The notes: generated by a model not told the origin, from the sequence alone. 56,522 nt of DNA from Chloroflexota bacterium (GCA_028875055.1 JAPPGG010000011.1:1-56522), one strand, 5' to 3'; shown: positions 1,549 to 4,631, numbered from the stretch's first letter. Numbers and translations are program-made.

Positions 1549-2091
1549 ATGGTTTCAGCGTCCGGGACAATTCAGATACTGGACCCGCGACCGGAAGACG
1601 TTCCTGAGGAAAAGGGAGTCAGCGCCCAGCTTCCCAGCCTGGAAGGCAAGGTAATCGGGCTGCTGGAAAACCGGAAATACCATGCGGACTCGTTCCTGCT
1701 GGAATTGCAGCGGGTGCTGGAGGAGGAGTACCAGGCCAAGAAGGTGGTCTATGCCTCCAAGTTTACCTTCAGCATGCCCTGCGCCGACGAAACCCTGGAC
1801 AGCCTGGTGGAGGAATGCGATGTCGTTGTCCACGGCATCGCGGATTGAGGCTCCTGCACGGCGTGGGGTCTCCACGACACAGTAGTGACCGAGTCTCGCG
1901 GTATCCCGTCGGTCAGCGTTATAACCAGCGCATTTACGCGGGCGGCCCACGCCCGGGCCGCGGCCCTGGGGATGCCGGGAGTCCGCATTGTGGCGCTGCC
2001 CAGTCCCCTGGCTTCCCGGAGTGTTGAGGAAGTACGGGAGATGGCCCACGAATATGCCGATGAAATCGTGGGGTTGCTGACCACCCGATAG
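1549..2091 (+). CDS. UGSC-family selenoprotein (UGA at 1846-1848 read as Sec)
   Basis: A conventional frame stops at TGA 1846-1848, but the same frame continues without interruption to TAG 2089-2091. Across the TGA it reads H-G-I-A-D-U-G-S-C-T-A-W-G, the U-G-S-C motif that names this selenoprotein family. The product is 180 residues with Sec at position 100. The N-terminal half (TIQILDP..., LEGKVIGLLENRKYHAD...) and C-terminal half (VTESRGIPSVSVITSAF..., MPGVRIVALPSPL) both look like family members. Start ATG 1549 has GGGAGG at 1534-1539. A SECIS-like hairpin follows the UGA (1862-1876). The U-x-x-C arrangement suggests a redox-active selenenylsulfide; the substrate is unknown. Ordinary gene callers would split this into a truncated protein (1549-1848) and a fragment (1885-2091). 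The UGSC partner gene lies two genes downstream at 2876. Confidence 0.9.
1862..1876 (+). promoter_or_regulatory. SECIS-like hairpin for selenocysteine insertion
   Basis: CGTGG (1862-1866), loop GGTCT (1867-1871) and CCACG (1872-1876) form a perfect 5-bp stem. The loop begins 18 bases after the UGA. Bacterial SelB binds a small hairpin with a G-U-containing apical loop at about this distance. From memory, the E. coli fdhF SECIS loop is also GGUCU at the same spacing. Confidence 0.75.
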
Positions 2092-2116
2092 CGCCAGAAG
2101 ACGTTGAAGCCCGTTT

Positions 2117-2141
2117 CCGCCGGAGTCATTGGCTCCGGCGG
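2117..2141 (+). terminator. Hairpin after the selenoprotein gene
   Basis: CCGCCGGAG (2117-2125) pairs perfectly with CTCCGGCGG (2133-2141) around a 7-base loop, followed by TTGTGTTG. It could be a weak intrinsic terminator or an mRNA-processing hairpin between the UGSC and TIGR00266 genes. The missing U-run makes termination uncertain. Confidence 0.45.
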
Positions 2142-2180
2142 TTGTGTTGAACCGGTACAAATGGGAGAGGAAGAGGCGAA

Positions 2181-2873
2181 ATGCAGACAGTGATTGAATT
2201 TGACCCCAGCTACGCCATGCTCACGGTGGTGCTGGACCCGGGGGAGAGCATAAAGGCGGAGCCCGGGGCCATGGTAGCCCAGCAAGATGTAGAAATGAAG
2301 ACCGGGTCGGCAGGTGGCGGAATATTCGGGGGAATCCGGCGGATGCTGGGTGGAGAGTCCTTCTTCATCAACACTTTCACCGCCGACAGGAACGGAGGCC
2401 AGGTATGCCTGGCGCCGTCCACCCCGGGAGACATAGGGTCCTTTGCTCTGCCGACGGGCCGGAACCTGTTCATTCAGGCCAGCTCTTTCCTGGCCTGCAC
2501 CGAGAACGTTCAGACGGACTCCCAGTTCCAGGGCTTCCGGGGTTTCTTCAGCGGAGAGAGCCTCTTTTTCCTGCGGGCATTCTGCGAACGGGGGGATGGC
2601 ACGGTTTTCTACAACTCTTACGGGGCGATCAAGCGGCTGCCGGTGGAACCGGGCAAGGAGCTGGTGGTGGATACTGGCCACCTGGTGGCTTTCAGCGATG
2701 ACGTGGAGTATTCCATTGGCAAGGTGGGAGGCCTCCGTTCCCTCCTGGGAGGCGGCGAGGGCCTGGTGATGAAGTTTCGGGGCAACGGGCACGTGTGGAT
2801 ACAGACCCGCAACCTGGCATCACTGGTGGAGAAACTGATCCCCTTCCTGCCCACACCGGACCGGGGGCAATAG
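2181..2873 (+). CDS. TIGR00266 / AIM24-family protein
   Basis: This 230-residue protein matches the AIM24/TIGR00266 family: an early YAMLTVVLDPGESIKAEPGAMVA segment (given in parts: YAMLTVVLDPGES, then IKAEPGAMVA), a glycine-rich turn (GGGIFGGIRRMLGGESFF), a long beta-rich body, and a late GLVMKFRGNGHVWIQTRN strand. Family members are about 220-260 residues, form beta-prism-like folds, and have no well-established bacterial function. There is no signal peptide or membrane segment. ATG 2181 has GGAAGAGG just upstream. Its stop is 2 bases before the start of the UGSC-associated gene, so the two are probably co-translated, tying this protein to the selenoprotein locus. Confidence 0.85.
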   Translation: MQTVIEFDPSYAMLTVVLDPGESIKAEPGAMVAQQDVEMKTGSAGGGIFGGIRRMLGGESFFINTFTADRNGGQVCLAPSTPGDIGSFALPTGRNLFIQASSFLACTENVQTDSQFQGFRGFFSGESLFFLRAFCERGDGTVFYNSYGAIKRLPVEPGKELVVDTGHLVAFSDDVEYSIGKVGGLRSLLGGGEGLVMKFRGNGHVWIQTRNLASLVEKLIPFLPTPDRGQ

Positions 2874-2875
2874 CA

Positions 2876-3943
2876 ATGAATCCAATGTCCATCCGGTCGC
2901 GCCGTGTGGAGGTGGAAGCCTCCTACGATGCCATCCAGGACTACTACGAACGGCAGGGCTGGACCGACGGTTTGCCCGTGGTGCCAGCCACCGAGGACCT
3001 GGTCCGCAAGATGCTGCAGCCCTACGGCCAGGACCCTGCCACCAGCCTGGGCGTGGTGCAGCCCCGGAATGCGGAAGTTACGCTGGAGAAGGTTGCCATT
3101 AACGCAGTTATGGCCGGGTGCAGGCCTGAGTATTTTCCGGTGGTGGTGGCGGCGGTTAAGGCGGCTCTGCAGCCGGACTTCAACATAGCCGGCGTGCAGG
3201 CCACTACCGGCGGGGCGGCGCCGGTGGTCATTGTTAACGGGCCCCTGGCGCAGGAGCTGGAAATCAACGGGGATTCCGGGTGTTTTGGTCCCGGATACCG
3301 TTCCAATGCCTCCATAGGACGCGCCCTCCGGCTGTTTGTGCGCAACGTGGCGGGGCTGATTCCCGGAGAGATGGACAAGGCGACCCTGGCCCTGCCGGCG
3401 CGTTACACGTTCTGCTTTGCCGAGAATGAAGCCCGCAGTCCCTGGGAGCCGCTGCACGTGGAAATGGGGCTGGACCCTTCAGCCAGCATGGTGACCCTTA
3501 TGGGCGTGCGGGGGATGTACACCATAATGGAAAGCACGTCGCCCACCGGCATCCAGGTGTTGCGTACGCTGGTGGGTTCCCTGAGGACCATCGGCGTCTC
3601 CAACTATTACCAGACCGGCACCGGCGCGCAACTGGCCCTGGTGCTCTGCCCGGAGCATGCCCAGGAAATACACGCGTCCGGCCTTACCAAGCAGGATGTG
3701 CGGGAGTATGTGTTCCAGAACGCCCGAATGCCGTTGAAGCGGCTGGAGGGCATAGCCCACTACGGAAACCGCAACTGGCCCCGGTGGATTGATGAATCGG
3801 ACCCGGATGCCATGATTCCAATTGTGGGGTCGGCGGACGACGTGCTGGTGGTGGTTGCCGGCGGAGACGGGCGCCATTCGGCCTGGCTGGCCGGCTGGGG
3901 AGTTACCCGGAGGACGACCCAGGAGGTGGAACTCCCCGAGTAA
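2876..3943 (+). CDS. UGSC-associated conserved protein
   Basis: The product is 355 residues from ATG 2876, with a GGGGG motif about 9 bases upstream. An upstream in-frame start at 2795 lies inside the previous gene and is not used. The sequence has the conserved run found, from memory, in proteins encoded beside or fused to UGSC domains: GWTDGLPVVPATED near the N-terminus, EKVAINAVMAGCRPEYFP, a GGAAPVVIVNGP segment, SNASIGRALRL, and FCFAENEARSPWEPLHVE. Cysteines in MAGCRP, GDSGCFGP and TFCFAEN are candidates for pairing with the selenocysteine partner. No membrane segment or signal peptide is seen. The biochemical function is unknown. Its placement in one transcription unit with the selenoprotein suggests the two form a functional unit. 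Confidence 0.7.
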   Translation: MNPMSIRSRRVEVEASYDAIQDYYERQGWTDGLPVVPATEDLVRKMLQPYGQDPATSLGVVQPRNAEVTLEKVAINAVMAGCRPEYFPVVVAAVKAALQPDFNIAGVQATTGGAAPVVIVNGPLAQELEINGDSGCFGPGYRSNASIGRALRLFVRNVAGLIPGEMDKATLALPARYTFCFAENEARSPWEPLHVEMGLDPSASMVTLMGVRGMYTIMESTSPTGIQVLRTLVGSLRTIGVSNYYQTGTGAQLALVLCPEHAQEIHASGLTKQDVREYVFQNARMPLKRLEGIAHYGNRNWPRWIDESDPDAMIPIVGSADDVLVVVAGGDGRHSAWLAGWGVTRRTTQEVELPE

Positions 3944-4013
3944 CTTGCCGACCGGGACACATACTGCCGGGCGGTGAGACCGTACCGGCGGAACTGTTAC
4001 AGAACCTGCTCCA

Positions 4014-4044
4014 GCCTCGCGGAATTTTCCGCGAGGCTTTTGTT
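4014..4044 (+). terminator. Intrinsic terminator after the UGSC locus
   Basis: GCCTCGCGG (4014-4022) and CCGCGAGGC (4029-4037) form a 9-bp perfect stem around AATTTT. A TTTTGTTG run follows. This is a clear end for the guaB3-UGSC-partner transcription unit. Confidence 0.8.
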
Positions 4045-4345: not shown

Positions 4346-4373
4346 ATATTCATCAGGGTTATGGAGGGCCAAG

Positions 4374-4631
4374 ATGATTGAGGAGCAGATAACCGATTTA
4401 GGTATAGACGATACTACCCTTCAAGAGTGTCAGCACCACTGGGTTATCCAGGAGGCCGATGGACCTTTCAGTTCCGGTGCCTGCCGATTGTGCGGGGCTT
4501 TGAAAGAGTTCAAGAATTATCTGGAAGCTTCCCACTGGGGCGACGAGAAAACGCGCAGCGAGTCTCGTACCAGCCTGTTGGGCAGACCCTCCAAGGCGGC
4601 CGCCATTGTCGAGGACGATGAGGATTTCTAG
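4374..4631 (+). CDS. Small zinc-ribbon-like protein
   Basis: This acidic protein has 85 residues from ATG 4374, chosen because GGAGGG lies 5 bases upstream and because the -35 and -10 boxes occupy the longer frame. The core is C-x-H-H-W-V-I, then C-R-L-C-G followed by KEFKNYLEASHW. This cysteine/histidine pattern is seen in short conserved Chloroflexi and actinobacterial proteins of unknown function. The residues could bind one zinc ion. The C-terminus is acidic (EDDEDF). It stands alone behind its own strong promoter, suggesting high expression. A role in nucleic-acid or protein binding is only a guess. Confidence 0.7.
   Translation: MIEEQITDLGIDDTTLQECQHHWVIQEADGPFSSGACRLCGALKEFKNYLEASHWGDEKTRSESRTSLLGRPSKAAAIVEDDEDF

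Follow-up and report, generated by a model that had tools for sequence, protein, structure and literature searches.

The UGSC-family selenoprotein and the 355-residue protein encoded near the start of the window—the whole 56,522-nucleotide stretch of Chloroflexota DNA that was analysed—form, we are nearly certain, a true unit. We propose that they are the two subunits of one GrdB-related enzyme that is recycled by thioredoxin and cleaves C–X bonds, a model to which, taken as a whole, we assign a probability of about 0.5. To judge from sequence comparison, the undescribed family here is that of the partner, not that of the selenoprotein. With a near-obligate partner family that has no database entry, and with fusions, cysteine forms and kinship to GrdB, what was an orphan becomes a two-subunit enzyme open to testing.

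The window is the start of contig C6 in a 3.75-Mb genome of 75 contigs, and its closest relatives among public genomes are Dehalococcoidia, part of them labelled SAR202. Its relevant features, numbered from the first letter of the window, are these:

140–1273: GuaB3-type IMP-dehydrogenase-related gene, upstream of UGSC (profile search)
1549–2091, plus strand: coding sequence of the UGSC-family selenoprotein, 180 aa, Sec at residue 100 (PF24696, 2.1e-52; NF041046, 1.4e-42)
1846–1848, plus strand: TGA as selenocysteine codon, the U of U-G-S-C (homology runs on past the TGA; Sec machinery in the genome)
1855–1857, plus strand: codon of Cys103, likely the resolving Cys of U-x-x-C (Cys in 78 of 79 aligned homologues)
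1862–1876, plus strand: SECIS-like hairpin CGTGG-GGTCT-CCACG, apical loop 18 nt past the TGA
2181–2873, plus strand: AIM24/TIGR00266 gene, 230 aa (PF01987, 2e-63; TIGR00266, 2.2e-60)
2876–3943, plus strand: coding sequence of the partner protein, 355 aa, of no described family (co-occurrence and adjacency with UGSC)
3119–3121, plus strand: codon of partner Cys82 in a GCxPEY motif (Cys in 82 of 89 homologues)
3413–3415, plus strand: codon of partner Cys180 in a CxAENExxSPWEP motif (Cys in 77 of 89 homologues)
4013–4041, plus strand: intrinsic terminator with an 11-bp stem, a 4-nt loop and a T-run (fold z −5.7)

Open reading frames and profile matches bear out the three genes in the order given by an earlier note on this DNA: UGSC (ATG at 1549, stop codon at 2089–2091), an AIM24-like gene and the partner, the last two being 2 bases apart (AIM24 stop at 2873, partner start at 2876). 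That note had also closed the locus with a strong terminator; the strength holds (the hairpin at 4013–4038, followed by TTTT, has a dG of −26.6 kcal/mol and a z of −5.7, with none of 200 shuffles as good), and the terminator lies about 70 bp beyond the end that had been given for the locus. Between the terminator and a dnaE-like gene lies a small ORF (4373–4631) with a C-x-x-C motif (CRLCGALKEF).

The full-length read-through protein scores 178 bits against PF24696 (cut-off 25) and 145 bits against NF041046 (cut-off 125) and, being above both cut-offs, is an ordinary member of the UGSC family. Its in-frame TGA is a selenocysteine codon, which is beyond chance because a UGSC homologue results from read-through and a tRNA-Sec(UCA) (anticodon tca), SelA (542 bits) and SelB (345 bits) are encoded in the genome. 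One in-frame TGA occurs in each of the four UGSC genes of this genome and likewise in all listed UGSC genes of its relatives, and position 100 is Sec or Cys in all 79 aligned homologues. In nearly all of 60 homologues the SECIS-like loop lies 18–19 nt past the TGA, and in 55 its first letters are GG or GT; as a set, these hairpins are more stable than synonymous recodings (Wilcoxon p 1e-5, from sequences that are not independent). In the window itself the hairpin does not surpass its synonymous recodings in stability, and a search of Rfam for SECIS elements gave no match. Cysteine takes the Sec position in Halorubrum, Natrinema, Halorientalis, Halalkalicoccus, Arthrobacter, Roseovarius and Variovorax, and these CGSC forms in haloarchaea, Arthrobacter, Roseovarius and Variovorax still have the partner adjacent. 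On a Paracoccus ferrooxidans plasmid (L192:7420-14158), a Sec-type UGSC gene, not annotated as such, and its partner lie about 3.4 kb from selB.

Evidence for the pairing comes from co-occurrence, neighbourhood, fusion and co-divergence. Of 99 related genomes, 71 encode UGSC together with the partner, 28 encode neither and none encodes just one of them; the copy numbers of the two rise together (r 0.985 overall, 0.97 among carriers) to as many as 14 pairs per genome. Each of the four UGSC genes of the source genome has a partner next door. With UGSC as bait, the partner was found no more than 1.5 kb away in 28 of 30 loci, against about one in a hundred expected by chance (an estimate for a genome of some 3 Mb with at most 14 partners). 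The survey with the partner as bait took in 80 loci from Chloroflexota, Pseudomonadota, Rokuibacteriota, Methylomirabilota, Myxococcota, Bacillota, haloarchaea and others, and found UGSC in about 74 of them, always on the same strand, usually 30–250 nt away and in either order; a few partners (L037, L064, L087, L099, L206) have no UGSC nearby. Most of the genomes compared are metagenome assemblies.

Single-chain UGSC/partner fusions are encoded by about 15 genes from several phyla, in frames that only the Sec codon interrupts, and the C1 paralogue of the source genome is itself an in-frame fusion (a 591-codon frame). The earlier note had matched the 355-residue protein to proteins beside or fused to UGSC domains, and had named a lack of enrichment next to UGSC genes as evidence to the contrary; the surveys show the partner enriched there, and the search for fusions was positive. 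On a tree of 89 partners the fused state needs seven changes, at least five of them forced by supported branches, and gene order needs six. Distances among UGSC proteins track those among their partners (r 0.87, where the best of 500 shuffles gave 0.12), and r is 0.57 for distant pairs. In 2008 UGSC was reported fused to a domain named Unknown_1 (PMC2398784), and the published accounts of UGSC that we examined mention no general partner and no operon context (PMC2398784, PMC13188914). Some haloarchaea carry partner-UGSC(Cys)-partner triplets (L191:6983-9645, L204:6025-8724), an arrangement suggesting hetero-oligomers with two partner paralogues.

The partner matched known families only at chance level, whether the window protein, its 89 homologues and their consensus were compared with Pfam by hmmscan, the window protein and homologues with NCBIfam, or the family profile with PDB sequences. 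Its residues Asp31, Pro34, Ala74, Ala80, Gly81, Gly122, Gly148, Arg149, Glu183, Trp190 and Gly329 are invariant, and the conserved cysteines that had been noted in it are confirmed as Cys82 and Cys180, at the frequencies listed above. AlphaFold2 predicts a natural fusion as one compact, confident body (pLDDT 93.5, pTM 0.92), weak only in the linker; so high a pTM for a chain of two domains means that their relative placement in the predicted model is confident. A fold search with the fusion model (Foldseek/VIA) returned rows mostly on the UGSC half and barely covered the partner half.

UGSC itself has been described as likely thioredoxin-like (PMC2398784, PMC13188914). The AlphaFold2 model of the window's UGSC protein (pLDDT 93.0) instead consists of five alternating beta-alpha units, with Sec100 just ahead of the helix at residues 101–116. 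The predicted models speak against a thioredoxin fold: those of UGSC and of the fusion place a helix between every two strands and do not follow the beta-alpha-beta-alpha-beta-beta-alpha order. Foldseek/VIA gave only generic Rossmann- or flavodoxin-like matches for UGSC (best Z 11.6), with no thioredoxin row listed, and comparison with PDB sequences gave chance-level matches only. In a profile comparison, hhalign of a profile of 79 UGSC proteins against one of eight GrdB C-terminal regions from relatives aligned 92 columns, Sec on Sec, with a probability of 96.0 and an E-value of 4.5e-9. With ten motif columns masked, the same register was recovered (88.7, E 2.5e-6), whereas five column-shuffled controls scored below 1 and a reversed control 1.3. 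Against short PrdB-like Sec proteins the register was the same and the match weak (probability 15%).

The UGSC domain is therefore very probably a distant homologue of the C-terminal Sec domain of the glycine-reductase protein GrdB, a link absent from the published UGSC descriptions that we examined (PMC2398784, PMC13188914). The resemblance to GrdB (PF07355) and PrdB lies in a homologous Sec domain, with Sec in the same place as in GrdB, and in the pairing of a Sec subunit with a second protein. Unlike GrdB, however, UGSC comprises the C-terminal domain only, in 180 aa, and no UGSC gene of this genome has the GrdB N-terminal part (PF07355) with it, the PF07355 matches being elsewhere (C22, C68). 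The present system differs also from the UGSC family as catalogued (PF24696, NF041046), in that its partner is near-obligate and in that predicted fold and homology point to GrdB and not to a thioredoxin-like protein.

Other GrdB-like selenoproteins occur in the genomes surveyed. Full-length Sec GrdB-like proteins of SAR202-type and related genomes (L118–L126), with a motif that is mostly UGTSTRSG and has no second Cys, adjoin GrdE-like genes; glycine-reductase-like enzymes are unexpected in such Dehalococcoidia relatives. Also frequent in these genomes are short PrdB/GrdB-like selenoproteins (L128–L136), whose motif is T-U-P-x-C-(S/N/T) and whose similarity to PF07355 is limited to the end of that profile; the source genome's two matches (C22, C68) fall in the same part.

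Another reading takes the pair for a thiol/peroxide redox system, a thioredoxin- or peroxiredoxin-like UGSC reducing or protecting its partner or dealing with a general oxidant. The U-x-x-C motif, the published 'Trx-like fold' label (PMC2398784, PMC13188914), trxB and trxA neighbours and the conserved partner cysteines would all suit it, as would the peroxidase activity of GrdB reported in the title of a reference in PMC3091704. We consider it unlikely: the predicted UGSC fold is strictly (beta-alpha)x5, which is not the thioredoxin order, and up to 14 paralogous pairs per genome in catabolic, transporter-linked loci fit substrate-specific enzymes better than a housekeeping antioxidant.

Thioredoxin genes appear as trxB-trxA-partner-UGSC in a row in Arthrobacter ERGS1:01, as partner-UGSC-trxB in Roseovarius and with trxB a few genes off in Variovorax, and TrxB-like neighbours that fall under the curated cut-off occur in Haloterrigena and SAT228; adjacent trxB is confined to few loci, mostly of Cys forms. 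Outside the lineage of the window, neighbours include MFS, TctC and TRAP transporters, CoA transferases, amidohydrolases, amidases, MmgE/PrpD proteins and LysR regulators, and the fused paralogue of the source genome adjoins genes for an HpaB hydroxylase, a luciferase-like monooxygenase and a CoA transferase. From this context we infer a catabolic role for the pair and recycling by thioredoxin, the latter being somewhat more likely than not. Genes annotated as phosphosulfolactate synthase also lie near pairs in Arthrobacter (L203:3719-4507; TIGR03849 below cut-off) and Natrinema (L187:3892-4359).

The same neighbourhoods admit a non-redox or net redox-neutral enzyme of organic-acid catabolism (a lyase, an isomerase or a thiol/selenol-based transferase) in which Sec serves as nucleophile or acid/base. 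Many neighbours are indeed lyases, CoA transferases and hydrolases, and fusions from Vibrio and Sporomusa keep the architecture with a UGSC-like domain that has neither Sec nor Cys (M-G-T-S for U-G-S-C) and adjoin aconitase X and DUF126. At least one branch, then, has dropped the redox residues, and its sequences suggest that the scaffold can work there without Sec/Cys chemistry. This reading is nonetheless improbable, given Sec or Cys at position 100 in 79 of 79 aligned homologues, Cys103 in 78 of 79, and thioredoxin systems adjoining several loci. The M-G-T-S fusions in question were seen in Sporomusa termitida and on a Vibrio europaeus plasmid (L201:5329-7053, L202:5374-7059), with aconitase X and DUF126 genes beside them.

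We favour a two-component, thioredoxin-recycled Sec/Cys enzyme because of the catabolic and thioredoxin neighbours and the analogy with glycine and D-proline reductase. In those enzymes the Sec of GrdB or PrdB is proposed to attack the alpha carbon of the substrate to give a selenoether, and the electrons that reduce glycine are passed on from NADPH by thioredoxin reductase and then thioredoxin (PMC3091704, PMC10298544). That glycine reductase runs via thioredoxin (PMC3091704) is matched by the thioredoxin-system genes adjoining some UGSC loci. The earlier note had read the locus as a redox system of a Sec protein and its partner; co-occurrence and fusions uphold the pair, while "redox" is plausible but too general in view of the kinship with GrdB and the catabolic neighbours.

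In the enzyme that we propose, the UGSC subunit would be a flavodoxin/Rossmann-like beta/alpha domain with Sec100 at the N-terminus of a helix and Cys103 one turn on. The partner would pack against it and most likely supply the substrate pocket, from the invariant Asp31, Arg149, Glu183 and Trp190 and the conserved Cys82 and Cys180. The Sec selenolate would displace a leaving group by attacking a carbon of the substrate, a small compound of organic-acid or amide type, in a reductive C–X cleavage; Cys103 or a partner Cys would then resolve the selenoether to a selenenyl-sulfide, which thioredoxin and thioredoxin reductase would reduce. Paralogous pairs would be specialised for different substrates. 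The C–X cleavage step, taken from glycine and D-proline reductase by analogy, we put forward tentatively, at somewhat less than even odds.

The partner departs from glycine reductase in being unrelated to GrdE: identity as a GrdE-like protein was rejected when comparison with a SAR202 GrdE-like profile gave an hhalign probability of 0.3% and an E-value of 0.23. The GrdE proprotein is linked to substrate activation in glycine reductase, a step without counterpart here because the partner shows no similarity to GrdE. Several UGSC hosts are, we presume from the known biology of their genera, aerobes, unlike the setting of glycine reductase. The pair may even represent a branch of GrdB-type selenoenzymes that has gone unrecognised and is largely aerobic: a two-component reductase, recycled by thioredoxin, that uses Sec or Cys to cleave C–X bonds in small organic molecules, has no pyruvoyl subunit and has multiplied in SAR202 and other heterotrophs into many copies specific to different substrates. 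For this broader claim we would put the odds at roughly one in three. If it were true, selenium chemistry of the glycine-reductase type would be found beyond anaerobes, in heterotrophs of sea and soil, which would bear on the use of organic matter by SAR202.

AIM24 would not be needed in the proposed enzyme. The middle gene is a clear family member (PF01987, 214 bits, cut-off 25.7; TIGR00266, 204 bits, cut-off 96.6), but within the UGSC system it is a neighbour in this genus rather than a conserved component. The genome has one AIM24 gene for its four UGSC-partner pairs, the other three being without it, and none of 30 UGSC-bait loci in relatives contains one, so the neighbourhood survey rejects AIM24 as a core component and runs against the earlier note, which had counted it in the UGSC grouping. 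Of 49 relatives, 16 carry AIM24, and it interrupts the pair only in the window's genus (five genomes) and in one further genome (G013). A three-component system with AIM24 (TIGR00266) as a functional part is accordingly refuted as a general rule and highly improbable otherwise: the gene does lie between the pair, 2 bases ahead of the partner, in the genus's five sampled genomes and G013, but it is absent from the three other pairs of this genome, from 30 of 30 UGSC loci and from most UGSC-bearing relatives, and in other genera its slot holds an unrelated gene or nothing. It is an insertion between the pair in the window's genus, a local bystander. In a second genus (g2) and other SAR202-type genomes the slot is empty or holds a gene of the endonuclease/exonuclease/phosphatase family (Exo_endo_phos), and genes of this type lie between UGSC and partner at L039:5236-5979 (Pfam-tested) and L045:5223-6041.
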